This document shows, one piece after another, positions 1 to 28,895 of a DNA stretch of 37,220 nt. The translations under genes were made by a program, and so were the position numbers. The number at the start of each line of letters is the position of its first letter. The first letter of the stretch is position 1. The stretch is taken from positions 1 through 37,220 of IMG/VR virus record IMGVR_UViG_3300025697_000072. One strand, written 5' to 3'. The stretch comes from a virus. Under the pieces are notes generated by a model. That model saw nothing but the letters and a program-made list of their open reading frames with translations. It was not told the origin of the DNA and ran no database searches.

Positions 1-434
1 ATATTGGCAGAGCAATAGCAGAGACTGAATACACTGAATATTATAATATGGAAGCTGGATTGGATAGCCTTAATTTAAAGAACTATCCTGTAACAACGTT
101 TACCGGTATGTGGAAAGTAACGACAAGTGCCACAGCCGTATTTAATAGTACATATTATTATATTCAGAAAGAGAGAGGGATTATAGACTTGTTAGGTGGT
201 GTGGAGTTCATAGGTGGCAATAAGAGCATTAAGGTGCAATACAAGGCTGGATATGCCACAGCAGACATACCAAAGGACTTACAGGATGCTTGCATAGACT
301 TAGTTTGTGCGCAGTATATCTTTCACAAGGTGTTAGTTAATGAGGTTGAATCAGACAAGGCAGGAGATAGAAAGACAGCACTTGAGGATTCAGCATATAA
401 AACACTAGACATATACAAAGGCGTAGCAGCATGA
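1..434 (+). CDS. Head-tail connector protein, gp6/phiE125 gp8-like (5' partial)
   Basis: The reading frame is open from base 3 and has no start in the window, so the gene begins upstream. The first visible ATG is at 48. The C-terminal half, with 'YKAGYATADIPKDLQDACI' followed by a long helix, matches the pattern of gp6/phiE125 gp8 connector proteins: a tyrosine- and glycine-containing strand, then 'P..L..A' and helices. Such proteins form the ring below the portal. The stop overlaps the next start (ATGA at 431-434), and neck and tail genes follow. The family call is by pattern only. Confidence 0.6.
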   Translation, partial: IGRAIAETEYTEYYNMEAGLDSLNLKNYPVTTFTGMWKVTTSATAVFNSTYYYIQKERGIIDLLGGVEFIGGNKSIKVQYKAGYATADIPKDLQDACIDLVCAQYIFHKVLVNEVESDKAGDRKTALEDSAYKTLDIYKGVAA

Positions 435-2173
435 GATATAAAGCAATGAGTAATTATTGGAGTGGTGGAAAGCTGTTGATTAAAAAGGGCGATATAGTTA
501 CTGATGAGGCTATGTTAAAGAAACTGGGCATAAATGTTTCCGAAAGCAAAAGCGAGCCTGTAATTACCCCAGAGGTTGTTGATGGTGGGTATATGAAGAA
601 AGGCAGTCAGATGGTCAAGAGTGATGAGAGAGAAGAGACGGGCGTTAAGGTTTGTTTAAATGTGGGTTGTGGTTCGAAGATTAAAAAGTCTGATGAAAAT
701 GAGAGATGGTTTAATTTAGACATAAGAAAATTGACTGGTGTGGATTTTACTGTTGATATAAGGACTATTGCGTTTGGAGGATTAGATGTAATTGAGGCTA
801 GAGATATATTAGAGCATTTTGGGCGCAGAGAGAGCAGAGAGATATTAGGCAAGTTAGTTAGTTGGTTAGATGGTGGCGGAAAGATAATTATACAATGCCC
901 AGACATAAAAGAAATATGGAGTGATCTAAGTGAGAGTGAAGAATGGTCAGAACGTAGGACTTTTGGCGGGCAGGATTATACAGGCAATTATCATGGTTGT
1001 GGTTGGACAATAGGCATGATGGAAAGAGAATTAAACAAACTGGGTGTAGACGTAGTCAAGAAAAGCAATCTAGCAAAGAATGGAAAAAGGCAGGGTAATT
1101 TCTACATGGAGGGAATTAAGAGAGGCAAAGATATAGATGTTGGCTTAATAACAATAGCTGGTAAGAGATGGGCTAATATGGGCATGGCATATTTAAGCGA
1201 TTGCGTGTATTGGCTAGGTGGATTATGTGAGGTGTTAGGCAAGAGAGTATCAACGGTTAAATGCGGAATAGAAGAAGGAGGCTACACCAAAAAAGGCAAC
1301 TTAGCAAGTGATGGTATATATGTTGCGGATTGGGAAGTAATGGGCAGTGTAGACGGCTTCCTTAGATTAATATTAGATAGAAAAATTAAAGTTTGTTTTA
1401 TTTGGGAATGTAGATTTAATATTGAGATACTGAAAAGAATTAGAGATAAATGCGAGTGTATGGTTATAGTTACAAATGACTATCAGGCAATAAGAGACAG
1501 AGATAAACATTTTGGAGAGGTGGCAAAGCTAGTTGATTATGTGATTACTACTCAATCTAATGCAGAATATGGCGGAAAGGAAAAGAATATATGTATTAGG
1601 CAGGGTGTGAATTGGGAAAATTACCGAGAGGATCACAAGAAAATAAACAAAGTGGCTTTTATAGGTAACTTGAGAAGCGAAGAGAGAAGAGATTATTTAG
1701 AAACACTGGCAAAAAGAGTAGACGGAATAGATATTTATAGTCAGGATTATGCAAAGATGGGTAACTGGAGTAAGCATATTAAAATGCACCCAGCAATAGA
1801 CAGGGTAAAAATGCGTCAGGTTTGTGGAGAAACAAAAATAATAATAGGCGATAAGTTTGAGATGCGCGCAGATTTCAAGTCAGGTGCAGAACATTATTGG
1901 AGCAATAGAATATATCAGATATTGGGTAGTGGGGGTTTTTATTTAACACCATATATTGAGGGATTAGAAGAGGAATTTGAGAATGGAAAGCATATTGTAT
2001 GGGTAAAGAGTATGGATGAGATGGTTGATAAGGTTAAATACTATTCAAGATACAATGCAAAGAGAGAGAAGATCGCAAAAGCTGGATATGATTTGGCGCA
2101 CAAGAAATATAAATATGTAGATAGAGTTAGATGTTTGGTTAATGAACTAAGACAAAGAGGAGTAAACATATGA
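431..2173 (+). CDS. Fusion protein: phage N-terminal segment, SAM methyltransferase, CgeB-like glycosyltransferase
   Basis: The 580-residue protein has three parts. Residues 1-35 resemble a short phage module with 'GDIV' followed by 'KKLGI'. Residues about 72-210 look like a class I SAM methyltransferase, with 'LNVGCG' at 76-81 as the SAM loop, 'FNLDIR' as the next strand, 'DILEHF', and 'LVSWLDGGGKIIIQCPDI'. Residues about 235-575 look like a CgeB-type group 1 glycosyltransferase, with a C-terminal 'GGFYLTPYIEGLEEEF' and a 'DEMVDKVKYY' helix. ATGA overlaps join it to both neighbours. It probably transfers a sugar and methylates it or the acceptor. The acceptor is unknown; a virion protein or a host glycan are both possible. 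Confidence 0.75.
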   Translation: MRYKAMSNYWSGGKLLIKKGDIVTDEAMLKKLGINVSESKSEPVITPEVVDGGYMKKGSQMVKSDEREETGVKVCLNVGCGSKIKKSDENERWFNLDIRKLTGVDFTVDIRTIAFGGLDVIEARDILEHFGRRESREILGKLVSWLDGGGKIIIQCPDIKEIWSDLSESEEWSERRTFGGQDYTGNYHGCGWTIGMMERELNKLGVDVVKKSNLAKNGKRQGNFYMEGIKRGKDIDVGLITIAGKRWANMGMAYLSDCVYWLGGLCEVLGKRVSTVKCGIEEGGYTKKGNLASDGIYVADWEVMGSVDGFLRLILDRKIKVCFIWECRFNIEILKRIRDKCECMVIVTNDYQAIRDRDKHFGEVAKLVDYVITTQSNAEYGGKEKNICIRQGVNWENYREDHKKINKVAFIGNLRSEERRDYLETLAKRVDGIDIYSQDYAKMGNWSKHIKMHPAIDRVKMRQVCGETKIIIGDKFEMRADFKSGAEHYWSNRIYQILGSGGFYLTPYIEGLEEEFENGKHIVWVKSMDEMVDKVKYYSRYNAKREKIAKAGYDLAHKKYKYVDRVRCLVNELRQRGVNI

Positions 2174-3276
2174 AGCTGGGATTTTGGGGTTGTTTAAATC
2201 AGAGTGGGGTTGGTTATGTGGGAAAGAATATAATTGATGGGTTAGGCATACAGCATATAGCTTTAATCCCGAACAGAGATAAAGGCTTTAGATTAGATTG
2301 GGTAAAGGGCAGAGATTTGACTTTATTAAGTGTTCCCGTATTCCCTAGAGCGGTTATAACTGATTGGCTTAATAAGACACGCCCAGAGTTAGTTTTAGTA
2401 GTAGAGACACCTTACACACCATACTTAGGAGAAGAATGCAAGAAACGAGGCATTAAGACGGTTAATGTGGCTATGTGGGAGGGCGCAGATGACAGACTGC
2501 TAAAAGAATTTGATTATCATGTAGCTAAGTTTGATTGGGAGAAAGAACATTTAGAAAAAGTCATGGGATATAAGACGTTAGATTTAACGCTCCCAACAGA
2601 GATTCACAAGTTTAAGTTTAAGAAAAGAACAGGCAAGCCTAAAGTTTGGTTACATGTAGCTGGATATGGTGGATTCTGGGGCAGGAAGAATACAGAGTTA
2701 ACAATGAGGGCTTTTAGTGAGAGTAAAGCATTCGGAACATTGATTGTAAGGGCGCAGTTAGATAATTGTGCTTATTCAAAGATGTTTCATTCTAAGAGCA
2801 GGAATTTAACAGATATAGCAGAAGAGCTAGGAGACGATAGAATTATACTAGAGATAGGTAATAAGACAGGTGAGAATTATGAACTTTACGACGATAGTAT
2901 AGACGTATCAATACAGCCCAGTAGGATTGAGGGTTATGGACTTAATATTATAGAGCCTATGATGTGTGGGATTCCAGCAATTACGACAGATGCGGAGCCT
3001 ATGAGTTGCTGGGGATTTAAGCCTTATCTTGTCAAGACGGAATTTGTAACGATTGGTAAGAAACGATTTGACAAAGATAGAGGAGAGTTTACACATCAAG
3101 GAGTTAGGTTTGCTGATATAAAAGAAAAGGATTTGACCGATACAATAAACCTAATAGCCGATAGAGACATAGGAGATGACAGCGAAAAGGCAAGAGAAAG
3201 AATGGAAGCTATGGGCTGGGATAAACAAAGAGATAGTTGGATTGATGCGCTTGAAGGAGTGATACATGGTGGTTAA
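2170..3276 (+). CDS. Glycosyltransferase, GT4-like (GT-B fold)
   Basis: A 368-residue protein. The C-terminal half carries the sugar-nucleotide site expected of GT4 enzymes: 'VSIQPSRIEGYGLNIIEPM' followed by 'CGIPAITTDAEPM', where the E-G-x-G-x-x-x-x-E-x-M pattern is the usual nucleotide-sugar contact. 'KPKVWLHVAGYGGFWGRKNTE' opens the second Rossmann half. A GAGGAG ribosome binding site precedes the ATG, which overlaps the previous stop. It lies between the fusion enzyme and an FkbM methyltransferase, so the three probably build one modified sugar. The family call is firm; donor and acceptor are unknown. Confidence 0.85.
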   Translation: MKLGFWGCLNQSGVGYVGKNIIDGLGIQHIALIPNRDKGFRLDWVKGRDLTLLSVPVFPRAVITDWLNKTRPELVLVVETPYTPYLGEECKKRGIKTVNVAMWEGADDRLLKEFDYHVAKFDWEKEHLEKVMGYKTLDLTLPTEIHKFKFKKRTGKPKVWLHVAGYGGFWGRKNTELTMRAFSESKAFGTLIVRAQLDNCAYSKMFHSKSRNLTDIAEELGDDRIILEIGNKTGENYELYDDSIDVSIQPSRIEGYGLNIIEPMMCGIPAITTDAEPMSCWGFKPYLVKTEFVTIGKKRFDKDRGEFTHQGVRFADIKEKDLTDTINLIADRDIGDDSEKARERMEAMGWDKQRDSWIDALEGVIHGG

Positions 3277-4093
3277 AAATATGTTCGGTGATCCAATGTT
3301 TTTAGATGAGTTAAATACGCTAAGTTTGAGAGATGGCAAGGTATATGAGCCGTTTGAGATAGAGATAGTAAGGCAAGTTGTAAAAAAGGGCGATACAGCA
3401 ATAGATATAGGCGCAATGATAGGCTGTTATACTTTAGTGTTTGCAAAGCTAGTTGGAGATAAAGGCAGGGTGTTTGCTTTTGAGCCGGAGATAGAGAATT
3501 ACAAGGTATTAAAAAAGAATATCAATATAAACGGATACAAGAATACAAAATTAGCATATATGGCAGTATCAGACACAGACGGAGAAATGAAATTATATAT
3601 ACATGATGGTAATTTAGGAATGCACACTTTAGGCAAGCCTACATATTGGAAACCGAAAGGGGTTGTTAATGTTAAAACTGTTCGGCTAGATACTTGTTTT
3701 AGTAAATCTTGTAGAGTTGATTTTTTAAAGATGGATATTCAGGGCGCGGAGGGATTGGCTTTAAAAGGGATGGAGAGAACATTGCGAGACAACAAAGACA
3801 TTAAAATGATTATAGAGTATTCACAGCCGGAGTTAGAAGTATTGGGAGATCCTAAAGAATGTTTAAAATTACTTACTAAGTATGGCTTTAATATATTTGA
3901 GATAGACAGATGGCAGAGGAACGTGCACAGCCGGATGTTGAGGAAAATTACAGATATAGATAGGTTTTCAAAGCGGTGTTATGAGGGATATTATGGTAAT
4001 TGTAAATGGATGAATTTGTTTTGTGTTAGGGATATAAAGGGCTTGCCAAAAAGAATATTAGATAGAATAGGCAGTGAGGATATTAATGATTGA
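3266..4093 (+). CDS. FkbM-family SAM-dependent methyltransferase
   Basis: A 275-residue protein with the FkbM pattern: 'GDTAIDIGAMIGCYTLVFAK' (SAM loop), 'VFAFEPEIENY' (acidic end of strand 2), 'VRLDT', and 'VDFLKMDIQGAE', the hallmark K-x-D-I-x-G-x-E. FkbM enzymes usually O-methylate sugars or polyketides. AAGGAG lies about 7 bases before the ATG, and the start overlaps the glycosyltransferase stop. The gene probably methylates the sugar added by the upstream enzymes. The last 20 codons overlap an alternative GTG start of the next gene. Confidence 0.88.
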   Translation: MVVKNMFGDPMFLDELNTLSLRDGKVYEPFEIEIVRQVVKKGDTAIDIGAMIGCYTLVFAKLVGDKGRVFAFEPEIENYKVLKKNININGYKNTKLAYMAVSDTDGEMKLYIHDGNLGMHTLGKPTYWKPKGVVNVKTVRLDTCFSKSCRVDFLKMDIQGAEGLALKGMERTLRDNKDIKMIIEYSQPELEVLGDPKECLKLLTKYGFNIFEIDRWQRNVHSRMLRKITDIDRFSKRCYEGYYGNCKWMNLFCVRDIKGLPKRILDRIGSEDIND

Positions 4094-4571
4094 GATTAAT
4101 GTATTTATAAAGAACCCAGAGAAGATAACTAAGATGCTTGGTGTAGATGCGAACAAAGCGGTAAATCAGGGCATGAAGTTTGCAATGAGAAGAAGCATGA
4201 TTAGATTAACTAATCATATTGCAGAACATAAATTACATGGACAGGTATTGAATGTAAGAACGAATAGATTGAGGGGTAGTATTCAAAAGAGCGCAGGCAA
4301 TAGAATAAATGTAACAAGTGATGGAATATCAGGAACGGTAGGTACTAACGTGATTTACGCCAAAATACATGAATATGGAGGTGTTATAAAGCCAAAGACT
4401 AAGAAAGCACTTAAATTTAAAATAGGAAATACATGGGTAACTACCAAACAAGTTAAAATGCCGAAAAGACCATATATGAAACCAAGTTTACAAGAAAAAT
4501 CAAGTGATATTATAAGATTCTTTTCAGAAGATGTGCAGAAATATGTTGAGAAGATTTGGAGGGTAGCATAA
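4086..4571 (+). CDS. HK97 gp10-like neck protein
   Basis: I start this gene at ATG 4086, 6 bases after GAGG. An upstream GTG at 4074 is in frame but would have a poorer site. The 161-residue product is basic and contains 'VGTNVIYAKIHEYGGVIKPK' and 'MPKRPYMKPSLQEK'. The A-x-x-x-E-Y-G-G and R-P-[FY]-[ML]-x-P-[AS] motifs are the signature of HK97 gp10/virion morphogenesis proteins at the head-tail joint. It overlaps the FkbM stop by 8 bases, so neck genes resume directly after the sugar genes. Confidence 0.82.
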   Translation: MIEINVFIKNPEKITKMLGVDANKAVNQGMKFAMRRSMIRLTNHIAEHKLHGQVLNVRTNRLRGSIQKSAGNRINVTSDGISGTVGTNVIYAKIHEYGGVIKPKTKKALKFKIGNTWVTTKQVKMPKRPYMKPSLQEKSSDIIRFFSEDVQKYVEKIWRVA

Positions 4572-6345: not shown

Positions 6346-6515
6346 GAAAGATACATCAGGGAGCGAGAGGACTGACAAAGTTTGATGAGGAGATTGTATC
6401 AGATATGAATGTTTGGAGAATATGCAAAGAACTACACAAGTTGCCAAGTGAGGTATTAAGCGAGCCGAATAGAAATATAGAGTTAATGCAGATGATTATT
6501 GGAGAAGAGAGATGA
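6007..6515 (+). CDS. Tail assembly chaperone, GT frameshift fusion
   Basis: The coding frame changes at 6330: read 6007-6330 in the first frame, then slip back one base and continue 6330-6515. This gives about 169 residues, 108 from G and 61 from T. The -1 frame is open to TGA 6513-6515, which overlaps the tape measure ATG at 6512. The T part contains 'LTKFDEEIVSDMNVWRICKE' and 'LPSEVLSEPNRNIELMQMII', a helical pattern with the conserved L-P-S typical of T domains, which bind the tape measure. Neither the T segment nor its start site would be found by a standard gene caller. Confidence 0.85.
6322..6331 (+). promoter_or_regulatory. Programmed -1 ribosomal frameshift site
   Basis: Nine A residues at 6322-6330 are followed by G. 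In the zero frame this gives A_AAA_AAA, a slippery heptamer that allows both tRNA-Lys molecules to re-pair one base back. Zero frame then stops at 6343-6345, while the -1 frame stays open for 61 codons. I see no obvious downstream pseudoknot; A-rich sites often work without one. Confidence 0.85.
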
Positions 6516-8875
6516 CTGCCGCTGAATTACAATTGGTTATTAAGGCAAAGGATCAAAGCGCAAAGACTTTTGCTGCAATCAAGGGGCGTTTAAATAAGTT
6601 TAAATCACAGGTTGGTAGGGTTGCAGGTGGGTTTAAGCAGTTATCAAAGAAATTTGGTACAGCTATGTCATCTATTGCCCGCAAGGCAAAATGGGCAGCA
6701 TTGGTAAGTGTGGCAGCATTAACAGCAATGGTAGTGGGTTCTATTCGGCAATTTGCTAAGTTGGAAAGCGGATTGCTTGATGTGCAAAAAACAACAGGAA
6801 TGTCTAATGAGGAAATACAAAAGTTGCGAAAGAGTTTAGAAGACCTTGTATTAACTACTCGAGGAATGACAATGGAAGGGCTTTTAAATGCTTCTGCAAT
6901 TGCAGGGCAGTTGGGTATTACTGGAGCAAAGAATATAGGGATTTTTTCAAAGGCGGTAGAAATGATGGCTATTGCTACAAAATATACAGCAGAAGAAGCG
7001 GCATTGGATTTGGCTAAAATTGCAAAAGTAATGGATTTGCCTATTTCTAAATCAGAAATGTTAGGTGATGTAATGAATGAATTATCTAATAGAACAACTG
7101 CTTTTGCTACACAAATTGGAGAGATAACGAAAAGAGCAGGTTCAATGGGTAAGTCATTTGGATTGACTATCCCTGAAATGATGGGATTTGCAGCAACAAT
7201 GATTGATGTGGGTGTAGAAACACAAGTAGGAGCTTCTGCAATCACAAGAATGCTTAATCAGGCATTATTAGATACGAAAGGATTTGCTCATGTAAGTGGA
7301 ATAGAATTTACTAGATATGCAAAGTTGGTTAAAGAAAAGCCGATGGAAGCAATAAAGAAATTTATTGAAGGACTTGGTAAGTTGGATAAATTTAAGAGAA
7401 TGGCAGCGTTAAAGGAATTACAGCTTAGTGGAGTAAGGGTAGCTCCTGCACTTGTAGCCATGAGTGAAAACACTAAATTACTATCAGATAATATAAAAAT
7501 CGCCAATGATCAATGGAAAGAAGGCGGTAGTTTGATGGATGAATACAAAAACAGAGCTAAGGGATTAACCTCTGCTTTTGCGAGTATTTGGGAAGCTGTA
7601 AAGATTATGGCGAGTAGATTGGGTGATGTTTTTGCGCCAGCATTAAAGGCGTTTGCTACTAAATTCCAGAAGCAGATAAAAGCTGTTAAGGATTATGTAG
7701 ATAAGTCGGGAATTGTAAAGGCATTTCAAGATATGTTTGGGGATATAATGGGAAGCATGACTAAACATCTTAATATATTGGGATGGATTAAAAAGGTTTT
7801 TGGTGAAACACCAAAAGAAGTTCAGGCTAATTTAGAGAAATGGAAAATAAAGTTTATTGGTTTTAGGAAATGGCTTGAGACGAATTCTCCATTTGAAGGA
7901 ATAAAAATAGCATTTCAAGATATATTAAAATATGTTAAATGGGTTGGATTAGGTATTGGGCTTTTAACATTAGCAACTAATAAATGGTTATCGGCATTAG
8001 CTGCTGTGCTTATCGCTTTTGAGGCTATTCAGAAGATAAAGGACTGGGGAAAAATCGGCATAATGAAGCAGAAATATGAAATGGCTGAGGATTATAGAAA
8101 AGCAATTAAAAGATGGGAAGAGGAATTGAAAAAGCATCAAGGTACATCGAGAGAAAAATATTATAAAGAAGGATTGGAAGCAGCGAAGGCATATTTTAAG
8201 GGATATACAGAAGAAGGCGACAAATTAGCTGAAAGTATTTATGGTGGCAAAGCACAAACTCCTGTATCTGATTTTTTAAGAAAAACATATTTAGGGGTTG
8301 ATGAAGGTACTAAGGGTGGCGGAATTAGTGAATGGATTAAAAAATTCAAAGCAGATATAAATAGACTTGGTAAAGAAGGATTGGGAACAGTTGACAAGCA
8401 AGTCAGTAAAGAAAAAGATATAAACGTAATACTAGAAGAAAGAAAGAAAATATATGATGTTTTACAAAAAGCAAGGACAAAGATACCAGTAGAAACGGGT
8501 AGAGTAAGAATGTTGGGAAAAGAAACAGTATTTACAAAAGAACAGCCAGCAGGAATGTCGGCAGAAAAGTTTGATAAAACAGTAGAAGAGGCTAAAGCAC
8601 AAAATCAAGCATTAGATAGTTTAAAAACAGCAACAGAGGGTATGCTGGGTGATTTAATACAAAACTATAAAGACGGCAAGATTGGCATAGATGAGTTGGC
8701 AAAGGGTATAGCCAGTTATGCGGCTAAGGCAAATAGTTTAAGTAGCGCGCAAACAAGTGTGCTCAGTCAAGTTATTAGCGTAGTTAAAAACCTTACAAGC
8801 AAAACAAACGCACTTGCAAAAACAGTTACTAGACAGGCATTAAGTATAAAACAATTAGCAGGACAAGGAGCATAA
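6512..8875 (+). CDS. Tail tape measure protein, TP901 family
   Basis: A 787-residue protein. The N-terminus, 'ELQLVIKAKDQSAKTFAAIK', is the usual opening of TP901-type tape measures. 'FAKLESGLLDVQKTTGMS' and 'AAEEAALDLAKI'-like helices with 'MGFAATMIDVGVETQVGASA' belong to the TP901 core. Hydrophobic segments lie near residues 58-77 and about 470-505, suited to crossing the host membrane during DNA entry. The length would set a tail of roughly 120 nm if each residue spans about 1.5 angstrom. GGAGAAGAGAG precedes the ATG, which overlaps the GT stop. Confidence 0.92.
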   Translation: MTAAELQLVIKAKDQSAKTFAAIKGRLNKFKSQVGRVAGGFKQLSKKFGTAMSSIARKAKWAALVSVAALTAMVVGSIRQFAKLESGLLDVQKTTGMSNEEIQKLRKSLEDLVLTTRGMTMEGLLNASAIAGQLGITGAKNIGIFSKAVEMMAIATKYTAEEAALDLAKIAKVMDLPISKSEMLGDVMNELSNRTTAFATQIGEITKRAGSMGKSFGLTIPEMMGFAATMIDVGVETQVGASAITRMLNQALLDTKGFAHVSGIEFTRYAKLVKEKPMEAIKKFIEGLGKLDKFKRMAALKELQLSGVRVAPALVAMSENTKLLSDNIKIANDQWKEGGSLMDEYKNRAKGLTSAFASIWEAVKIMASRLGDVFAPALKAFATKFQKQIKAVKDYVDKSGIVKAFQDMFGDIMGSMTKHLNILGWIKKVFGETPKEVQANLEKWKIKFIGFRKWLETNSPFEGIKIAFQDILKYVKWVGLGIGLLTLATNKWLSALAAVLIAFEAIQKIKDWGKIGIMKQKYEMAEDYRKAIKRWEEELKKHQGTSREKYYKEGLEAAKAYFKGYTEEGDKLAESIYGGKAQTPVSDFLRKTYLGVDEGTKGGGISEWIKKFKADINRLGKEGLGTVDKQVSKEKDINVILEERKKIYDVLQKARTKIPVETGRVRMLGKETVFTKEQPAGMSAEKFDKTVEEAKAQNQALDSLKTATEGMLGDLIQNYKDGKIGIDELAKGIASYAAKANSLSSAQTSVLSQVISVVKNLTSKTNALAKTVTRQALSIKQLAGQGA

Positions 8876-8876
8876 A

Positions 8877-9239
8877 ATGGCAACATCAACAGTGTATTTT
8901 GGGACTAAAAAACTTTCAGACGTGGGTATGAGTACAGGATATAGTGCGGATGGTGGTGGTGCTACATTAAGAGTTAAATGTGAAATTAGCAAAACAACAA
9001 ATAAACTATTCAGGGCAGAGGTAGAGGATCTTATTAAAAATTATCTCAAGCCAAGTGGAATACAAGAAGCAAGAGTACCAAGAACGGTTGGGGTTAGATT
9101 ATATGTTAATAGTGTAGAGGCAGAAGTGAAGATTGCAGGGCGTAGTTATGGCGATATGGCTTGTTCTTCTGTAAGTGTTGATGAGGAAACAGCAAGCGGA
9201 TGGGGGACAATAAATATCGAATTTAGGGGGTCAATATGA
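8877..9239 (+). CDS. Small tail protein of unknown function
   Basis: A 120-residue protein starting one base after the tape measure stop, with AAGGAG before the ATG. It is rich in beta-prone stretches: 'ATLRVKCEI', 'VGVRLYVNSVEAEVKIAG' and 'GWGTINIEFRG'. I do not recognise a family. Position directly after the tape measure suggests a tail-tip or distal tail part. Its stop overlaps the next start. Confidence 0.55.
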   Translation: MATSTVYFGTKKLSDVGMSTGYSADGGGATLRVKCEISKTTNKLFRAEVEDLIKNYLKPSGIQEARVPRTVGVRLYVNSVEAEVKIAGRSYGDMACSSVSVDEETASGWGTINIEFRGSI

Positions 9240-9691
9240 AATTAAATATGAATTTTGGAGCAAAGTATAATGTAGAGGCTATTTTAACAAGACATGACAA
9301 AGTTATTTTATATAAAGCAAAGCATAATGTATCTACCACTGTTGGGAAATATCATATAGCTGACCAGTTAGCAAGCGTACACAACGAGGCTGAAATGGGC
9401 TGGATGGAAACAGGTTCAGGAGCGGATGCAGGAGCAGATCCAACAGCTTTAACAACAGCATTGAGCAGATTAGCATTGACATCAAGAGATCAACAGGCAG
9501 GGGCTTCTGCGGATGAGGTATTATATCAATGTGTTTGGGCTGCTGGGGTTGGCACAGGAACAGTAACAGAGGCGGGGATATTCAATGCGAGTTCAGCCGG
9601 GATTATGCTTTGTTATGTTCATTTTGATTCAGCAATACCAAAAGTTGCGGATGTTGAATTGACATTGAAGTGGACAGCAACGATTTCATAA
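9236..9691 (+). CDS. Tail-tip or fibre-associated structural protein
   Basis: A 151-residue protein. 'VGKYHIADQLAS' near residue 38, then a 'GSGADAGADPTALTTALSR' loop, 'VGTGTVTEAGIFNASSAG' and a final 'DVELTLKWTATIS' strand match a recurrent phage structural protein pattern in which T-E-A-G-I-F-N-A is the best conserved stretch. I know the pattern only as an uncharacterised virion protein. It overlaps its upstream neighbour by four bases, and the fibre genes follow. Confidence 0.6.
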   Translation: MKLNMNFGAKYNVEAILTRHDKVILYKAKHNVSTTVGKYHIADQLASVHNEAEMGWMETGSGADAGADPTALTTALSRLALTSRDQQAGASADEVLYQCVWAAGVGTGTVTEAGIFNASSAGIMLCYVHFDSAIPKVADVELTLKWTATIS

Positions 9692-9700
9692 GGGGCTATT

Positions 9701-10264
9701 ATGGAGCATTTACATATAACAATATTAAAAGATGTGGGCGGAGTTGGTGCTGCTGCTACTGTTACGGTTTATGATGCAGGTACAGTGGACGTGTCAACAA
9801 TATATTCAGATGATGGCTCTACTGCTGCAGGAAACCCACTTACAGCAGATGCGTATGGTAGGACTAATTTTTATGCAGCGAATGGTAGTTATGATATTAA
9901 AGTCACTGGCACAGGAATAACGGAATATACAATGTCAGCAGTTAAATTATTTGACGTGAAAACAGTTGATGAGGCTGATACAAATGCAGACTTAGACAAA
10001 GCAGTATCTAATAATCTCGCCAAAGGTTGGGAAGATGCTAAGGACGTAGTTGGCTATTATTTAAAACACACAGTAACAGCCGGAGAAGAGACATCAGGCA
10101 TCATAACTGTAACAGCCTATACAACAGGCAATGATTCGCTAAAAGTGTTCTTAAATGGCATGTTACAGTGCGTTACAGACGATTATGCAGAGACAGACAC
10201 AACTACAATAACTTTCGTAGCTGACAAATTAACAGAAGATGACACATTAATATTGAGAGGGTGA
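9701..10264 (+). CDS. Putative tail fibre or fibre-attachment protein
   Basis: A 187-residue protein. Residues 1-90 form a beta-rich domain with 'TVTVYDAGTVDVSTIYSDDG' and 'GNPLTADAYGRTNFYAANGS', a pattern seen in phage fibre and virion proteins, where Y-D-A-G-T marks a small repeat and A-D-x-x-G-x-x-x-F-Y-A marks the next strand. The C-terminal half has 'FLNGMLQ', 'DDYAETDTTTITF' and 'LTEDDTLILRG', as found in fibre knobs. There is no signal peptide. The stop overlaps the alternative GTG start of the fibre that follows. Confidence 0.6.
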   Translation: MEHLHITILKDVGGVGAAATVTVYDAGTVDVSTIYSDDGSTAAGNPLTADAYGRTNFYAANGSYDIKVTGTGITEYTMSAVKLFDVKTVDEADTNADLDKAVSNNLAKGWEDAKDVVGYYLKHTVTAGEETSGIITVTAYTTGNDSLKVFLNGMLQCVTDDYAETDTTTITFVADKLTEDDTLILRG

Positions 10265-10266
10265 TT

Positions 10267-12618
10267 ATGAAAAAGTATATATTTTTATTTATGATACTTG
10301 CATTAAGCATAAATGTGGGCGCAACACAGATAGGCACAAAGCAGATAAAGGATCAAGCTATAACTACTGCCAAACTAGATGATGAGGCGGTGAATGATAC
10401 TAAGTTAGAAGCTGTACTCAAAGCTAAAATACCAACTGCTGATGAGAAGGCTGCTATGACAGGGGCAAATAGTCCTTCTGCCGCAAATGTATTGGCTACT
10501 ATGGATGATATAACCGGACTGGATTCAGGAGTGCAGACTGTCACAGATGGCGACTTTATCACAAATTCAGGCACAGCCAAGAATCCAATTCTTGATGTAG
10601 ATGTGGATGATAGTTCAGAGGCTAATACACAGTTATGGACAGCTGAGAAGATAACATCCGAGCTTGCAGGTAAAGTAGACCAAGCTGATAGTGCGCTTAT
10701 TCAGCATAATGATTTACTTGGTAAACAAGGTGGAACTGTTGATGAGTATTATCATATGACTAATGCACAGCATACAAGAATAGACGAGTTAGAATCTACT
10801 GACACACCAGTATTCGCTTCTGTAAATATTGGGGGCAATTATCAATTTCCACCAGATATTGGCACTTCGGCTCAAATATTAAAAGTACCTGCTGCTGGAA
10901 CTGTATTGGAATGGGGTTCTGGTGGTGCTGGATATACTAATTTAACAGAATTCGTAGACCAAACAGCTTGGAGATTCTTCTATTCTAATGCTGACGGAGA
11001 TGTTATAGAAAGTGTTCTTGGTGCGGCTGGAACTTTTTGGGAATCAAATGGTGCGGATACTGACCCTGTTTGGAGTGTTCCTGCCGGAGGTGGTGATGTA
11101 GTAGGTCCGGCAGGTGCAACAGATAATAACATCGCTGTATTTGATACAGCAACAGGCAAGCTAATACAAGATAGTGGTACTCTTATTTCTGATTTATTAG
11201 ACAAAGCTGATTCGGTAGTTATTAGTGATGTAGCTTATGATGATACAACTTGGGATTCAAACACAGATGGAGCATCAAAGAACACTATTAGAGATAAAGT
11301 TAATACTATGGACACCGCTATTGGACTAAACACAGCAAAGGTTACGAATGCAACTCATACAGGCGAAGTAACAGGTTCAGTTGGTCTCGTATTAGACCCT
11401 ACTTGTATATCTGGAAAATCTGATACCACCATAGCAGATTCTGATTACGTATTATTTTGGGATGATTCAGATAGCACTTTAAAGAAAGTAGATGCAGCAG
11501 AACTAACAGCAGGCGGAGGTGGTGGATATACTAATTTAACTCAATTTGTAGACCAAACAGCATGGAGATTCTTCTATTCAAATACAGATGGAGATGTTAT
11601 AGAGTTTCCCCTTGGTATTGCTGGAACTTTCATGGAATCAAATGGTGCGGACACTACACCTGTTTGGAGCGTTCCTGCTGGTGGTGGGGATGTAGTCGGA
11701 CCCGCAGGCGCAACAGATAATAATATTGCCACGTTTGATACAGCAACAGGCAAGCTAATACAAGATAGTGGTACTCTTATTTCTGATTTATTAGCTGTAG
11801 CGGATTCGCCAGTTATTAGTGATATAGCCTATGACGATACAACTTGGGATTCAAACACAGATGGAGCGTCTAAGAACGCTATTAGAGATAAAATCAATCC
11901 TATGGATACTGCTATTGGGTTGAATACAGCAAAGACAACTAACCAAACCCATACAGGCGAGGTAACTGGTTCAGTAGGACTTGTATTAGACCCTACTTGT
12001 ATATCGGGAAAAGCCGATACAACAGTAGTAGATGCTGATTATTTCCTATTTTGGGATGCCACAGATAGTACTTTGAAGAAAGTAGATGCGGCAGAGTTAA
12101 CCGCTGCGGTTGGTGGTGGAGCTAAATGGAGATTTGTAAACTTACCTGCTGGTTCATGGGATTATCCAACTGCTAACCCTGCGCCTTTGGACACAGACAC
12201 AGGAACGAATGGCACAATAAAAAGGCAGTTGTTTGATGATACTACGGAGGAATTTGTTATTGTTGTAGTGCAAATGCCTTCTGATTTAGATGTTGCTGAT
12301 ACAGTTTTCTTTGAGGCTTATGGATATGCAGAAACAGCGGTAGCTGACAGTTATATAGAACTTACAGTTTATCATTCAGCAAAAACGGATGGCGAAAGTT
12401 GGGACGCTGCTTATTCTTCTAAGATTAGCGGAGATTTAACAACGGATGGCTCACAAGATTATTTAGATTATTTCTCATGGAGTGAAACAGTAAGCACGTT
12501 AGGTTGGGCGGTAAATGACCAAATCCGAATTAAGTTAAGCAGAAGCGCACCCAGTGCAAATAATCTAAGCGGGGACTGGGGTTTAACTCATTTCAGAATC
12601 AAACTACCGAGGGAATAA
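10267..12618 (+). CDS. Large fibre-like protein with an N-terminal signal peptide
   Basis: I start at ATG 10267, 7-8 bases after GAGAGG; a GTG at 10261 is also in frame. The first 20 residues, 'MKKYIFLFMILALSINVGAT', are a textbook Sec signal peptide with likely cleavage after V-G-A. Next comes 'QIKDQAITTAKLDDEAVND', the coil-forming repeat of phage fibres. Residues about 220-615 contain two copies of a 198-codon unit. The C-terminal 150 residues are beta-rich and end with 'WGLTHFRIKLP'. Fibres are assembled in the cytoplasm, so an export signal is unexpected; the protein may be displayed on the host surface instead. Confidence 0.75.
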   Translation: MKKYIFLFMILALSINVGATQIGTKQIKDQAITTAKLDDEAVNDTKLEAVLKAKIPTADEKAAMTGANSPSAANVLATMDDITGLDSGVQTVTDGDFITNSGTAKNPILDVDVDDSSEANTQLWTAEKITSELAGKVDQADSALIQHNDLLGKQGGTVDEYYHMTNAQHTRIDELESTDTPVFASVNIGGNYQFPPDIGTSAQILKVPAAGTVLEWGSGGAGYTNLTEFVDQTAWRFFYSNADGDVIESVLGAAGTFWESNGADTDPVWSVPAGGGDVVGPAGATDNNIAVFDTATGKLIQDSGTLISDLLDKADSVVISDVAYDDTTWDSNTDGASKNTIRDKVNTMDTAIGLNTAKVTNATHTGEVTGSVGLVLDPTCISGKSDTTIADSDYVLFWDDSDSTLKKVDAAELTAGGGGGYTNLTQFVDQTAWRFFYSNTDGDVIEFPLGIAGTFMESNGADTTPVWSVPAGGGDVVGPAGATDNNIATFDTATGKLIQDSGTLISDLLAVADSPVISDIAYDDTTWDSNTDGASKNAIRDKINPMDTAIGLNTAKTTNQTHTGEVTGSVGLVLDPTCISGKADTTVVDADYFLFWDATDSTLKKVDAAELTAAVGGGAKWRFVNLPAGSWDYPTANPAPLDTDTGTNGTIKRQLFDDTTEEFVIVVVQMPSDLDVADTVFFEAYGYAETAVADSYIELTVYHSAKTDGESWDAAYSSKISGDLTTDGSQDYLDYFSWSETVSTLGWAVNDQIRIKLSRSAPSANNLSGDWGLTHFRIKLPRE
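10931..12112 (+). repeat. Two tandem 594-bp units inside the fibre gene
   Basis: The units begin at 10931 and 11525, exactly 594 bases (198 codons) apart. Both start by encoding 'GYTNL' and 'FVDQTAWRFFYSN' and end with 'TLKKVDAAELTA'. Copies differ at scattered bases and by a few residues, for example SVLGAAGTFWE versus FPLGIAGTFME. This looks like a tandem duplication that lengthened the fibre, with divergence afterwards. Confidence 0.9.
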
Positions 12619-12619
12619 C

Positions 12620-13372
12620 ATGAAAATATTACTAATTGTTTTATGTATTTTAATTGCTAGTCCTGCTATGTGTGGATTGCAATTTAATGGAAGTAATCAA
12701 GAAGTTAATTGTGGGAATATCACAACATTAAATTCGTTATCTGCAATAACGATTATGGCGTGGGTATGGACGGAAGATTCTGGTGCTGGCGGATCTCCAT
12801 ACGGTGGTATAGTAGCAAAAGGTGCTGGTTCTTCAAGTGGCGAAACATGGAGAATGAGTTGGACAGGGAGTACTTGGACATTTGTTGTAAGGAGCGGAGG
12901 AAGTTCGGCTAACGTAAACTCAGTGACAAATATAGAAGATGGTAATTGGCATTTGTTAGTTGGAACATGGGACAAGAGTGTGAATAGTGGAAAATGTACT
13001 GTATATACAGATTTAAATAAAGTAATTTCAACTACAGGTATCACAACAGATTTATCAAATGTTACTACTCCAGTTCAGATAGCAAGATACAATTATGCTA
13101 ATAGGCATTTTGCTGGGAAAATATTTGATGTACGTGCTTACAACCGAGCCTTATCATTAGCAGAAATACAAACACTCTATCACTCAAGAGGTTCTGATAA
13201 TATAGTTAATGGATTAGTTGGTAGATGGTTAATGAATGAGAAATCTGATGGTTCTACTGCAACGGTTGCAAGTTCTGTAATAGACATATCAGGGAACGGT
13301 AATGACGGGACACCAGCAAATAGTCCTATATATGTACCAGCACCAACAAAATTAATAAAGAGACCAAGATGA
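12620..13372 (+). CDS. Secreted LamG/concanavalin A-like lectin domain protein
   Basis: A 250-residue protein. Residues 1-18, 'MKILLIVLCILIASPAMC', look like a signal peptide, with cleavage near A-M-C/G. The rest fits a LamG-3 fold: 'LQFNGSNQEVNCGN', 'ITIMAWVWTEDSGAGGSP', 'NWHLLVGTWDKS', 'FAGKIFDVRAYNRALSLAEI' and 'GLVGRWLMNE'. The 'G-x-[IL]-x-[DE]-V-R-x-Y-N-R-A-L' stretch is the hallmark of the family. Such domains bind sugars. GAGGGA precedes the ATG one base after the fibre stop. Residue C18 is not in a good lipobox, so I do not call it a lipoprotein. Confidence 0.82.
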   Translation: MKILLIVLCILIASPAMCGLQFNGSNQEVNCGNITTLNSLSAITIMAWVWTEDSGAGGSPYGGIVAKGAGSSSGETWRMSWTGSTWTFVVRSGGSSANVNSVTNIEDGNWHLLVGTWDKSVNSGKCTVYTDLNKVISTTGITTDLSNVTTPVQIARYNYANRHFAGKIFDVRAYNRALSLAEIQTLYHSRGSDNIVNGLVGRWLMNEKSDGSTATVASSVIDISGNGNDGTPANSPIYVPAPTKLIKRPR

Positions 13373-14175
13373 AGAAACAATTATGTATAGGGTTAATGGT
13401 GTTTTTAGTATGTAGTTTTATTTGGGAAATGAGTGGAATTGCAACGCAGTTTGATAAACCATTATTCACTTTTGTTCAAGTTACCGATACCCATATCATA
13501 CATGGTAAATCAGTAAAAAACATTATCAAGGGAATAGAAAGCATTAATTCTCTAAGACCACAACCAAAATTTGTTGTAGTTACTGGAGACCTTATTCATG
13601 GGGAAAAACCAAAAGAGTCATTTCGCCTTTATAAGAATGTTTTTTTTAGACTTAGGGCTAATCATTATTCAGTATATGGTAACCATGATAGCACAAAAAA
13701 ACTATACCAAGATATGATAGGGGAACTTAATTATTCTTTTAATATTTATCCTTATCATTTTATTGTGTTGGATAATATAGATAAAAGTCTAAAATATAAA
13801 GATACTTGGTGGTGTGGATTTTCAAAAGAAACAACTAACTGGCTTAAAAACCATCTTCAATCCGTAAATAAAGAAACACCTATTATTTTATTTTGTCATG
13901 CTTCTATTTTTCGAGAACCTAGTTTCTGGAAAGACTTTCCGGGAGATTGTTGCAACTATAAACCAGTAATAAAAATGCTTGAACCTTATAATGTGGTAGC
14001 TTGGTTTCAAGGACATGCTCATTGCAATGATATAGAAAGAGTTGAAGGTATTGACTATATCACTACAATTTGTTTGAATAATCTCGAATATGACAGAAAT
14101 CGTAAAATTGGTTATAGGGTAGTATCTGTATATAAAGATAGAGTCGAAAGTATTTTTAAACCAATAAGAAGATAG
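13369..14175 (+). CDS. Exported calcineurin-like metallophosphoesterase
   Basis: A 268-residue protein with all metal-binding motifs of the calcineurin-like fold: D40-T-H42, G73-D74, G104-N-H-D107, H177 in 'LFCHAS' and G215-H-A-H218. Residues 1-25 (KK, then a hydrophobic 'LCIGLMVFLVCSFIW') act as a signal peptide or membrane anchor. Such enzymes hydrolyse phosphomonoesters or phosphodiesters. An exported form could act on envelope phosphates such as teichoic acid, LPS or phospholipid. The ATG overlaps the LamG stop (ATGA). Its location among fibre and lysis genes is unusual. Confidence 0.88.
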   Translation: MKKQLCIGLMVFLVCSFIWEMSGIATQFDKPLFTFVQVTDTHIIHGKSVKNIIKGIESINSLRPQPKFVVVTGDLIHGEKPKESFRLYKNVFFRLRANHYSVYGNHDSTKKLYQDMIGELNYSFNIYPYHFIVLDNIDKSLKYKDTWWCGFSKETTNWLKNHLQSVNKETPIILFCHASIFREPSFWKDFPGDCCNYKPVIKMLEPYNVVAWFQGHAHCNDIERVEGIDYITTICLNNLEYDRNRKIGYRVVSVYKDRVESIFKPIRR

Positions 14176-14177
14176 AG

Positions 14178-14411
14178 ATGAGAAGAATACTACTAATAGG
14201 ACTTATAGGATTGATGCTGGGTGGGTGTGGATATAGGGGTTCGTTACTTATAAAAGACAATGAAATAATCGCTAAGTCAAACAAGCCTATGTGTATAGAA
14301 AAGAAAATTAACAAAGATGGAGTAACTACTTATACATATTCCAGCAAGAAATCCGCAAGTTGGATGGAGAACTTAATGACAATAATTGGACTAAGGGCTA
14401 CAAATAAATGA
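14178..14411 (+). CDS. Small lipoprotein
   Basis: A 77-residue protein beginning 'MRRILLIGLIGLMLGGCGY'. The lipobox L-G-G-C has its lipidated cysteine at residue 17. The mature part is about 60 residues, hydrophilic, without a second membrane segment. Two roles are plausible: outer spanin-like lysis lipoprotein, given the holin-like gene that follows, or a superinfection-exclusion lipoprotein. Proline-rich Rz1 features are absent, so the spanin idea is weak. Confidence 0.75.
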   Translation: MRRILLIGLIGLMLGGCGYRGSLLIKDNEIIAKSNKPMCIEKKINKDGVTTYTYSSKKSASWMENLMTIIGLRATNK

Positions 14412-14421
14412 AGGGAGAATC

Positions 14422-14649
14422 ATGGCAAATGGAAATTGTGTTGTTGGTGCAAATTTAAAAGGAAGGGTGGAGAATATGGAAAAGAGATTTGATAAACTAG
14501 ATGGAACTCTGGAGAGAGTATTTAATAAACTTGACGAGTTAAAAGAAGGCTGGCAGAAAAGACCGAGCTGGACTGCATCTGCTTTACTCGCTTTCTTAAC
14601 GTCAACAACAGTAGGGTTGCTGGTAACATTATTTAGAGTAATAAAATAA
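14422..14649 (+). CDS. XhlA/holin-like membrane protein
   Basis: A 75-residue protein with a predicted coiled coil (residues 12-45, 'VENMEKRFDKLDGTLERVF'), then 'KRPSW' and one C-terminal membrane helix, about residues 52-72 ('ALLAFLTSTTVGLLVTLF'). Coiled coil plus C-terminal helix is the layout of XhlA-type haemolysin/holin accessory proteins. AGGGAGA precedes the ATG. It is the best holin-related candidate in the window. Confidence 0.65.
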   Translation: MANGNCVVGANLKGRVENMEKRFDKLDGTLERVFNKLDELKEGWQKRPSWTASALLAFLTSTTVGLLVTLFRVIK

Positions 14650-14685: not shown

Positions 14686-15339
14686 ATGATTAAACTATGT
14701 GAATGTGGTTGTGGACAGCCAACTAAGATAATTACAATGACAAATAATAAAGATGGAAGAATAAAGGGTGAATATAGTAAATTTATTAGTGGGCATAATC
14801 TAAAAGAAACATCTATATCTGAAAATGGTAGAATTAAATTAAGCAAAAAACAAATAGGAAAAAATAATTCTTTTTACGGTAAAAAACATACTCTTAAAAC
14901 AAAAAGAAAGATAAGTGAAGCAGAAATCGGTAAAAATAATTCTAATTGGAAAGGTGGAAAACCTCATTGCAAAGAGTGTGGTAAATTATTAAGTAACTAC
15001 AATGCTATTCATTGTCAAAAATGCTATGATAGAAAAGGAGAAAAATCTGGAATGTGGATAGATGGTAGAAGTTTTAACCCATATCCAATAACTTTCAATA
15101 AACAACTTAAAGACAGAATAAGGGTCAGAGATAACTTTATATGTCAGAAATGCGGTGTCCCTGAATTAGAGTGTAATGAACGATTAGATATACACCATAT
15201 TGATTATAACAAAAAGAATTGTGAATTAGATAATCTTATTTCTTTGTGCCGTAGTTGTAATGTCAAAGTAAATAAAAATAGAGAATATTGGACTGATTGT
15301 TTTAAAAATTCGTTAGTAACACTCTTGAGAAAAATATAA
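14686..15339 (+). CDS. HNH homing endonuclease with NUMOD3-type motif
   Basis: A 217-residue basic protein. The N-terminus is cysteine-rich ('CECGCGQPT'). Residues about 60-90 ('SFYGKKHTLKTKRKIS') match NUMOD3, a DNA-binding motif of homing endonucleases. The C-terminus has a treble-clef HNH domain: 'CQKCG', 'LDIHHIDYNKKNCELDNLI' and 'CRSCN'. A free-standing homing endonuclease cuts related phage genomes lacking it. Unlike its neighbours it has no ribosome binding site but a private promoter, and its base composition is even more A-rich, all signs of insertion. Confidence 0.9.
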   Translation: MIKLCECGCGQPTKIITMTNNKDGRIKGEYSKFISGHNLKETSISENGRIKLSKKQIGKNNSFYGKKHTLKTKRKISEAEIGKNNSNWKGGKPHCKECGKLLSNYNAIHCQKCYDRKGEKSGMWIDGRSFNPYPITFNKQLKDRIRVRDNFICQKCGVPELECNERLDIHHIDYNKKNCELDNLISLCRSCNVKVNKNREYWTDCFKNSLVTLLRKI

Positions 15340-15518
15340 TGATGTTTAAAGTAGTCTTGCATAGAACCGTAAAATATATATTTAATCACAAGCGAACCCG
15401 TGAAGTCATGGAGAGAGAGATAATTAGAATACTCGAAGATCCAAAGACTAGAAAATTATTTGAAGATATTGCGGAGAAGGCTATTTTAGAATATACTAAA
15501 AAAACTTATGGGGTGTGA
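15339..15518 (+). CDS. Small charged protein of unknown function
   Basis: A 59-residue protein that begins 'MMFKVVLHRTVKYIFNHK' and continues as an acidic/basic helix ('REVMEREIIRILEDPKTRK', 'LFEDIAEKAILEY'). The ATG overlaps the endonuclease stop (TAATG) and its stop overlaps an alternative start of the peptidase gene. The helical character could suit a lysis accessory or structural role. I recognise no family. Confidence 0.6.
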   Translation: MMFKVVLHRTVKYIFNHKRTREVMEREIIRILEDPKTRKLFEDIAEKAILEYTKKTYGV

Positions 15519-15520
15519 AT

Positions 15521-16021
15521 ATGGTTAATATGTATGATGTAAAAGAATTTCCAATATTCGTATTAGTAGATGATCGTAGGTCGTTTATTGGATTCGCTAT
15601 AAAAAATCACAGTCATGGATGTTATAATCATATTGCAGAATTATTTATGCCGGATATGCTTGCATCTCAAGATATTGTTGGATATAGGATGGTTGGGGTT
15701 AGTAAGTATCTTAAAAGGCGTTATATGCTAAAGCTATGGGCATACAGAGGCAAAAGACAGGCAGAGCTGATAGATAGTATCAAATCAGACCTAAAGTCCT
15801 CTGTACGCCAACGTCGATATGATTTTTTAGGTATCATTGGAAAACTCTTGCATATTAGCTGGATAAACAATCCAAATACATATTTTTGCAGTGAAAGAGC
15901 AAGCAAACACCTGCGAAGTATTGGAATGAAATTGCCAAAACATCCTTCGCCATCAGAATTAAACCAGCTATTTAAAACTAAAACAAGTATGAAATGTTTA
16001 GGATATTGGGTAAAAGATTAA
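15521..16021 (+). CDS. YiiX/YebB-like permuted papain-fold cysteine peptidase
   Basis: A 166-residue protein. H37 in 'CYNHIAELF' and C123 in 'YFCSERASKHLR' match the permuted NlpC/P60 pattern, in which the catalytic histidine comes before the cysteine and the cysteine is followed by S-E. 'RRYDFLGIIG' is the conserved helix before it. Such enzymes cut peptide or amide bonds in the cell wall or lipids. It follows the holin-like gene and no other endolysin is present, so it may be the lytic enzyme, or a tail-tip peptidase for cell entry because the tail hub follows. I use ATG 15521 after GGGGTG; GTG 15515 is an alternative. Confidence 0.75.
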   Translation: MVNMYDVKEFPIFVLVDDRRSFIGFAIKNHSHGCYNHIAELFMPDMLASQDIVGYRMVGVSKYLKRRYMLKLWAYRGKRQAELIDSIKSDLKSSVRQRRYDFLGIIGKLLHISWINNPNTYFCSERASKHLRSIGMKLPKHPSPSELNQLFKTKTSMKCLGYWVKD

Positions 16022-21166: not shown

Positions 21167-21240
21167 TGGAGCGGAAGAAGGGAATCGAACCCTCATTCTC
21201 AGTTTGGAAGACTGTAATTCTACCATTAAACTACTCCCGC
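21167..21240 (-). tRNA. tRNA-Gly (anticodon UCC)
   Basis: On the minus strand a full cloverleaf runs from GCGGGAG to CTTCCGC-T-CCA with 7-bp acceptor pairing. The T arm is GAGGGTTCGATTCCCTT. The anticodon loop is CTTCCAA, reading GGA. CCA is encoded. The top pair of the anticodon stem (A27-A43) is a mismatch. GGA suits an AT-rich phage genome. Confidence 0.93.
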
Positions 21241-21242
21241 AT

Positions 21243-21318
21243 TGGAGCCGGAAAGAGGAATCGAACCCCTAACATCCTCATTACAGGTGAGGCGCTCTGC
21301 CTATTGAGCTACACCGGC
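21243..21318 (-). tRNA. tRNA-Thr (anticodon UGU) with C33
   Basis: On the minus strand it runs from GCCGGTG to TTCCGGC-T-CCA. The D arm (GCTCAATAGGCAGAGC) and T arm (AGGGGTTCGATTCCTCT) are normal, and CCA is encoded. The anticodon stem CCTCA/TGAGG encloses the loop CCTGTAA, so position 33 is C, where U is nearly universal. The acceptor stem has a U6-U67 mismatch and a G-U at 7-66. It reads ACA. It may be functional, modified or decaying. Confidence 0.88.
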
Positions 21319-24778: not shown

Positions 24779-25188
24779 TGCTAAACAAATACGAAAAGCT
24801 AACCGAACCCCACAAGATAATAAGCAATATATTTGATAATATAAACGCAGGAATGGAAGCAGGTAAAAAGCCAGCAGATAAAGCGATTGAGGAGTATGAG
24901 AGAAAATTTGATAAAACAAGAGTAGTAAAGAAAACATCGAATAAGCTACTGAAAGCAATGCTCAGGGATTTAAAAAAAGAGAAAGTTATTCTAAAGAAGT
25001 CATTATCTAAGGCCGGAGAATTTATTGAGGAACTAAAGCAATCCGAGGTAATAGCAAACGTGATAATTAAATCCACAAATGGAGTTATAAAAAAGTTGAA
25101 AGCAGAGAATAAGGAATTAAAAGCTAAACTCCGCAGGTTTGACGAGATATTTAACAATTTTGAATCTAAAAGAAAAGGTATAAAATGA
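24778..25188 (+). CDS. Coiled-coil early protein
   Basis: A 136-residue charged protein dominated by long helices ('VVKKTSNKLLKAMLRDLKKE', 'NGVIKKLKAENKELKAKLRR'), probably a coiled coil. There is no membrane segment or cysteine cluster. It overlaps the C5 methyltransferase start (ATGA). Function unknown. Confidence 0.55.
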   Translation: MLNKYEKLTEPHKIISNIFDNINAGMEAGKKPADKAIEEYERKFDKTRVVKKTSNKLLKAMLRDLKKEKVILKKSLSKAGEFIEELKQSEVIANVIIKSTNGVIKKLKAENKELKAKLRRFDEIFNNFESKRKGIK

Positions 25189-25823
25189 AAGTATTAAATC
25201 TTTACGCAGGAATTGGTGGAAATAGGAAGTTGTGGAAAGATGTTGATGTTACTGCTGTTGAGCTTAATCCAAAGATAGCAGCTATATATCAAGACTTCTT
25301 TCCACAAGATAAGGTTGTTGTGGGAGATGCACATGAGTATTTGCTAGAGCATTATAAAGAGTTTGATTTTATATGGAGTAGTCCACCTTGTCCGAGCCAC
25401 AGCGATATTAGGAGAATGGGTGTTTCCGCTGGAATGTATGAGGCGAAATATCCCGATATGAAGTTATGGCAGGAGATTATATTATTGAAATATTTTTGTA
25501 AAAATAAATATGTTGTGGAAAATGTTAAAAGTTATTATAAGCCGTTAATAAATCCACAAGAAAGTGGAAGGCATTATTTTTGGGCTAATTTTGCAATTAG
25601 AAACATAAACCTACCACCACTAAAAATTAGAGATATACATAAAAAAGAGATAAGAAACATGGTTAATTCTGAACTAGGCTTACACATCCTAAACGAAAGC
25701 AAAATAAATAGATACCCGGAATTATTTAATAACCAAAAGGAGAACAATCGTGATCATAATACCAATAACCAAGAAGAAAGCAGAAGAACAGGGATTCACG
25801 CCAATAACAGACTTCTATTGTAA
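25185..25823 (+). CDS. DNA (cytosine-5) methyltransferase with altered C-terminus
   Basis: A 212-residue protein with 'LNLYAGIGG' (motif I, residues 4-12), the catalytic C69 in 'WSSPPCPSHS' (motif IV) and 'VVENV' (motif VI, E112). It is short but has the core motifs, as in many phage enzymes. After 'RYPELF' the last about 31 residues read an alternative frame of the next gene and look unlike protein. One extra T in the T-run near 25727 would give a stop directly after that point, so a 1-base loss has probably extended the gene. It would methylate phage DNA against host restriction. Confidence 0.85.
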   Translation: MKVLNLYAGIGGNRKLWKDVDVTAVELNPKIAAIYQDFFPQDKVVVGDAHEYLLEHYKEFDFIWSSPPCPSHSDIRRMGVSAGMYEAKYPDMKLWQEIILLKYFCKNKYVVENVKSYYKPLINPQESGRHYFWANFAIRNINLPPLKIRDIHKKEIRNMVNSELGLHILNESKINRYPELFNNQKENNRDHNTNNQEESRRTGIHANNRLLL

Positions 25824-28845: not shown

Positions 28846-28895
28846 TAACAAAAATATTCCCATATACGCTTATAACTATTTGTGTGGTGTGGTGA
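28842..28895 (+). CDS. 17-codon leader ORF of the methyltransferase cassette
   Basis: ATG 28842 overlaps the previous stop (ATGA), and its own stop overlaps the methyltransferase ATG (TGATG). The peptide ends 'ITICVVW'. An independent short ORF before the second cassette gene ends with the same residues (29878-29913). This could couple translation. The shared end may also be just the copied DNA. Confidence 0.4.
   Translation: MITKIFPYTLITICVVW

Follow-up and report, generated by a model that had tools for sequence, protein, structure and literature searches.

Genomic setting of the block

The window, by which we mean the whole stretch of DNA analysed here, is the 37,220-nt IMG/VR record IMGVR_UViG_3300025697_000072 of a tailed phage. 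A related record (L016) has approximately 7.7 kbp between the stretches that match the end and the start of the window, so we treat the window as a linear fragment. This analysis concerns a block of four genes and its neighbours:

6512-8875: tape measure gene, upstream of the block in the late tail operon
9236..9691 (+): small fibre-type tail protein without a signal peptide (phrog_5417, E=2e-14), upstream neighbour
9701..10264 (+): 187-aa tail-operon gene without a signal peptide, overlapping the fibre start, 100% identical in L035
10267-14411 (+): block of four consecutive genes (fibre, LamG lectin, calcineurin-like phosphoesterase, lipoprotein)
10267..12618 (+): tail-fibre protein with a predicted N-terminal Sec signal (fibre-like PHROG matches)
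10267-10323 (+): predicted Sec signal of the fibre, approximately residues 1-19 (Sec scorer)
10942..11526 (+): fibre repeat copy 1
11536..12120 (+): fibre repeat copy 2 (repeat comparison)
12133..12615 (+): C-terminal domain of the fibre, a beta-sandwich resembling CBM35-type carbohydrate-binding modules
12620..13372 (+): LamG lectin with a predicted Sec signal
13369..14175 (+): predicted exported calcineurin-like phosphoesterase (GpdQ/CpdA-like)
14178..14411 (+): small lipoprotein with lipobox LGGC, kept in L035 and L097 despite swapped preceding genes
14422..14649 (+): 75-aa coiled-coil protein with a TM segment at its C-terminus, resembling a holin in appearance only
15515..16021 (+): 168-aa gene, conserved, at the distal boundary of the block (L097 homologue, 80% nt identity)

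One correction is that the block does not stand apart from the virion genes: it lies in the late tail operon, downstream of the tape measure gene, and is packed into it, with a 4-nt overlap with the upstream gene, gaps of 0-10 nt and operon genes that overlap or abut up to 14649. A terminator scan found no forward terminator within the block, and a consensus scan put promoter-like sites at shuffle level, with no excess. The block does not fit a lysogenic-conversion moron, which would have its own promoter and terminator, as it has no forward terminator and its promoter-like sites are at chance in the consensus scan. Among the flanking genes, the 9236..9691 product also has a weak match to the Gp80 podophage fibre profile (PF23140, E=6.5e-5, below cut-off), and family searches with the 14422..14649 product gave no confident match.

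Shine-Dalgarno (SD) motifs are used by 59% of genes in the window vs 6-14% in L093, L100, phi10:1 and phi46:3 (background 15-23%). As these four are Bacteroidota-type phages, the difference points to a host outside the Bacteroidota for the window. A prophage-host search with the fibre tip returned a single Pirellulales MAG contig only.

Several other features of the window deserve mention. An HNH endonuclease gene (14686-15339) sits just 3' of the block, and its homologues in L011 and L017 have other surroundings, beyond terminase, which would fit a homing gene that is mobile. Glycosyltransferase and methyltransferase genes (431-2173, 2170-3276 and 3266-4093) occupy 431-4093, between head-tail connector genes (48-434 and 4074-4571); this insert has 91-98% protein identity in L016/L084, and the record carrying L035 also has a similar cluster (L083). 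The 37-kb fragment further contains three distinct DNA methyltransferase-like genes (25185-25823, 28880-29827 and 33001-33711), which are of C5-type (apparently short), N6/N4-type and Eco57I-type. Adjacent tRNA-Gly(tcc) and tRNA-Thr(tgt) genes lie at 21167-21318 (-), and a stretch similar to this pair occurs near terminase, at a different place, in L012 and L013.

Export signals

The original prediction held that four consecutive genes each encode a Sec signal or lipobox, and asked for a signal-peptide predictor to be run on them. We used a rule-based Sec scorer (not SignalP) with a false rate of 1.8% on shuffled N-termini. Among the plausible genes of the window it flags exactly these four, bearing out the claim, and no other credible gene has a signal; the scorer additionally flags two spurious antisense ORFs. 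All four N-termini have a charged n-region, a hydrophobic core and a signal peptidase site, the phosphoesterase site being weaker.

The predicted cleavages follow MKKYIFLFMILALSINVGA in the fibre (mature protein starting TQ), MKILLIVLCILIASPAMC in the LamG lectin (starting GL), MKKQLCIGLMVFLVCSFIWEMSGIA in the phosphoesterase (starting TQ) and MRRILLIGLIGLMLGG in the lipoprotein (starting with C). The phosphoesterase has the weakest site of the four, and its signal could be an uncleaved anchor. For the fibre, the best start is the ATG at 10267, which has an SD-like GAGAGG just upstream, not the GTG at 10261, and this N-terminus is the same in L035 and analogous in L097. Immediately 3' of the signals there is no start codon preceded by an SD motif. 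These predictions give good support for the export of all four products, and the fibre and lectin would be processed by removal of their signal peptides.

The four proteins

The domain content described in the original prediction held up for all four proteins. The repeat in the fibre is confirmed: residues 228-422 and 426-620 are 87% identical over 195 aa, in a register of 198 residues. The last 161 residues of the fibre form a confidently modelled domain (AF2 pLDDT 93), which Foldseek places near CBM35-type modules and whose viral neighbours include fibre and minor tail proteins. Likenesses in the PDB to toxin receptor-binding domains and Eph receptors were rejected as signs of kinship, being generic beta-sandwich resemblance (TM about 0.5). 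The C-terminal domain occurs in more than 30 other phage loci, usually beside a LamG-type gene, so the fibre body is common to the tail modules of other phages. This signal-bearing fibre is the only candidate we found for a large fibre in the window phage.

The lectin matches the Laminin_G_3 profile (PF13385) with E=2e-18 and 67.4 bits, above the gathering score of 27.6. Its homologues align from the point where the window's mature protein begins and have no signal. In all 33 assessable loci (some of them near-duplicates, making the number of independent cases smaller) that pair the fibre tip with a neighbouring gene, mostly LamG, neither gene has a signal. Since this recurrent tail-module pair is unsignalled, the fibre and LamG bodies are probably virion adsorption parts to which a signal was added, i.e., the export signals in the window appear to be a derived addition to known adsorption parts. 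Named phages were also searched for the window LamG, the L093 fibre and the window lipoprotein, with no match.

The phosphoesterase reaches 51 bits against PF00149 (E=3e-13, cut-off 21.5), has all the metal-binding motifs (D-x-H, GD, GNHD, H and GHAH) and matches the PDB 2zo9/3d03 group at 5e-5. No direct relatives were found in IMG/VR or in 27 related records. The gene is absent from L035 and L097, both of which have a comparable block, and it appears to be an accessory.

The lipoprotein has a lipobox ([LVI][ASTVI][GAS]C) at its signal end, which is LGGC in the window, with lipobox-like MAGC in L035 and LTGC in L097, and weak matches to LptM signal models give further support. No members of the family were found beyond these three records, and the AF2 model is poor (pLDDT 61), with no PDB match found. 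In T5 and its relatives, lipoproteins encoded directly 3' of receptor-binding genes are superinfection-exclusion proteins (PMC9586334). We also considered a spanin, because the next gene in L097 encodes an N-terminal TM coiled coil; this reading is not supported, as the window's next gene has its TM segment at the C-terminus, unlike that of L097.

The block in related records

The record L035 matches the window at approximately 100% identity until about nt 10800, where, within the fibre, the two part (compared over 9001-11300). The order in L035 is a fibre with the same signal, a signal-bearing F5/8 discoidin protein and a homologous lipoprotein, with the phosphoesterase missing. In L097 the order is a 1327-aa signal-bearing fibre (containing LamG and a region of homology with the discoidin of L035), a lipoprotein and the homologue of 15515-16021. 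The layout of the block thus recurs in these two related phages: the signal-bearing fibre and lipoprotein recur in both, the lectin parts differ and the phosphoesterase is absent. From these comparisons, the signal-bearing fibre and lipoprotein appear to be the constant elements and the lectin and enzyme exchangeable, with signals apparently retained when modules are swapped.

The L035/window border is a sharp recombination border within the adsorption module, leading into different lectin genes, with an assembly chimera as a less likely alternative.

Another lineage (L093 and L100) has two and three consecutive signal-bearing genes, respectively, which encode fibres, a PKD/polysaccharide lyase and a pectate-lyase-like spike. 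Related lyase genes in L099 have no signals.

Signal-bearing proteins annotated as virion components in Cellulophaga phages

Isolated marine Cellulophaga phages with proteomic annotation allow the relationship between export signals and virions to be assessed. The fibre modules of phi10:1 (gp91-94), phi19:1 (gp101-104) and phi18:3 (gp85-87) comprise 11 proteins, all 11 of which are MS/MS-annotated as structural and have textbook Sec signals. Virion status here means the GenBank note 'annotation based on experimental MS/MS proteomics analysis', which may include co-purified envelope-bound proteins. In phi10:1 and phi19:1, signals are present in 8/8 fibre-module proteins vs 0/18 other virion-annotated proteins (portal, capsid, tape measure and others), giving a Fisher p-value of 6e-7, a value that treats neighbouring genes as independent, which they are not. 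Signal-bearing runs also occur in phi46:3, Ingeline and phi3ST:2, the last of which has a gene for a tail sheath. The signals in these isolates have canonical n/h/c regions and either AXA-type sites or Bacteroidota sites cleaved between A and Q, and they are restricted to one module. They are not remarked on in the records examined.

The gp93 protein of phi10:1 and gp81 of phi46:3 are 93% identical over 707 aa, with the signal segment exchanged for that of another gene. Conversely, a segment of 42 residues, spanning the signal and the start of the mature protein, shows 88-93% identity between proteins whose bodies differ. Signals therefore seem to be kept through recombination. Among these isolates phi18:3 and phi46:3 are podoviruses, and signal-bearing modules appear, by sequence comparison, to be shared between phage families. 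The trait is not universal, since no convincing signal-bearing fibre run was found in the Bacteroidota isolates P12002L, B124-14, P12024L and phi17:1.

In L110, positions 7439-7564 encode the 42-residue segment mentioned above; it is common to different tail proteins of several Cellulophaga phages, like a portable export-and-docking tag.

Interpretation

The explanation that we narrowly think probable is that the block is a host-adsorption module whose fibre and lectin are synthesised as Sec precursors and reach their final form beyond the cytoplasm, accompanied by a phosphoesterase and a lipoprotein that are also exported. Translation with the late tail genes would be followed by passage of the fibre and lectin through the inner membrane, removal of their signal peptides and extracytoplasmic folding. 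By analogy with the Cellulophaga phages, they would be virion components in the window phage, serving as its sugar-binding tips once attached to particles, either in the periplasm or when the cell lyses. The companions would act on the host envelope: the lipoprotein is most likely an Llp/Cor-like receptor-blocking (superinfection-exclusion) protein, and the phosphoesterase may trim phosphodiesters of surface polymers or scavenge phosphate. Several points count against this explanation: the Cellulophaga evidence comes from other phages with another host group, relies on GenBank annotation notes and concerns fibre proteins that show no sequence homology to those of the window, a periplasmic fibre must reach a particle assembled in the cytoplasm, and the phosphoesterase cleavage site is weak.

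The original prediction reasoned that virion fibres need no export signal and that at least part of the block may therefore act on the host surface. This reasoning fails because signals are present on every one of the MS/MS-annotated Cellulophaga fibre-module proteins, so an export signal is no argument against a virion role. A host-surface role is plausible for the lipoprotein, given its T5 Llp-like position (PMC9586334), and for the phosphoesterase; for the fibre and lectin it is possible and not favoured. In its full form, this alternative makes the exported fibre and lectin non-virion adhesins or decoys, sent to the surface or medium to mask receptors, block superinfection or change adhesion, with the other two proteins helping. 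Signals on all four genes agree with it, a lipoprotein and a phosphoesterase are by nature proteins of the envelope, phage lipoproteins beside receptor-binding genes block receptors (PMC9586334), and the unsignalled relatives imply that the same domains need no signal for virion use. However, we consider it rather unlikely: signal-bearing fibre-module proteins are annotated virion components in three isolates, and a non-virion role for the only large-fibre candidate would leave the particle without a large fibre.

Export and virion use could also coexist, with most copies exported as a soluble depolymerase or lectin at the host surface and a fraction joining particles, either in unprocessed form ahead of export or through binding after lysis. 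This would fit both the MS/MS detection and the signals, and the polysaccharide lyase and pectate lyase partners in other modules make sense as soluble depolymerases, but there is no SD-preceded internal start immediately after the signal that could yield an unsignalled form, and we regard such dual use as improbable. Alternatively, the hydrophobic N-termini could be membrane or tail-docking anchors instead of export signals, or the MS/MS calls carry-over, making the signals irrelevant to the virion. The cleavage sites of the phosphoesterase and LamG lectin are not ideal and the predictor is purely rule-based, yet canonical n/h/c regions with AXA-type or A-Q sites recur in many genes of one module only and are kept through recombination, making this very unlikely.

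Tailed-phage virion assembly is taught as a cytoplasmic process. Our tentative generalisation, which we rate as possible rather than probable, is that some tailed phages finish their host-recognition apparatus outside the cytoplasm, with fibre, lectin and depolymerase subunits Sec-secreted, processed and attached in the periplasm or during lysis, and that such a module arose more than once (the window type, L093/L100 and the Cellulophaga phages) and moves between families as a unit. Signal-bearing fibre modules are already in public records and have not been singled out in the literature searched: no description of them was found in its open-access subset, and the passages found in the TP-84 glycosylase and AH14a lipoprotein papers, which were possible precedents, report no signal-bearing fibres. 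Nor did our searches find a described phage system with this exact set of genes, in agreement with the original prediction. Lack of a signal peptide has been taken as support for the phage origin of a protein (PMC6199706), a rule of thumb that signal-bearing proteins annotated from virion MS/MS contradict. Extracytoplasmic fibre assembly is directly testable in culturable phage-host pairs, and it would alter how 'secreted' genes in metagenomic phages are annotated, i.e., as fibres or as auxiliary genes.

Comparison with known systems

The closest parallels are the modules of phi10:1, phi19:1, phi18:3, phi46:3, phi3ST:2 and Ingeline, in which 2-5 consecutive adsorption genes in the tail module each have a Sec signal, and lectin/lyase domains are frequent. 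They differ in having Bacteroidota hosts, in showing no detected sequence homology to the window's proteins, and in that neither a lipoprotein nor a phosphoesterase was seen in the runs examined, whereas the window block has both. The uncultured phages L046-L081 also have the fibre's C-terminal domain (at 25-63% identity), with another gene downstream that is in most cases LamG, but the pair is signal-free in the 33 assessable loci and signalled on both genes in the window. The phosphoesterase has the catalytic motifs and domain match of GpdQ/CpdA-type calcineurin-like phosphodiesterases, but it is phage-encoded, predicted to be Sec-exported and below every NCBIfam equivalog cut-off.

The lipoprotein resembles T5 Llp and Cor (PMC9586334) in being small and directly 3' of adsorption genes in the window, L035 and L097. 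It differs in lacking the conserved mature cysteines for a disulphide: the L035 and L097 proteins have only the lipid cysteine, and the window protein carries a single additional Cys. Neither its sequence nor its low-confidence model showed a match to them. Lambda too has genes for exported proteins close to its tail genes, such as the lysogenic-conversion genes lom and bor. Unlike these, the window block lies in a tight tail operon, has no terminator of its own and contains fibre and lectin bodies.
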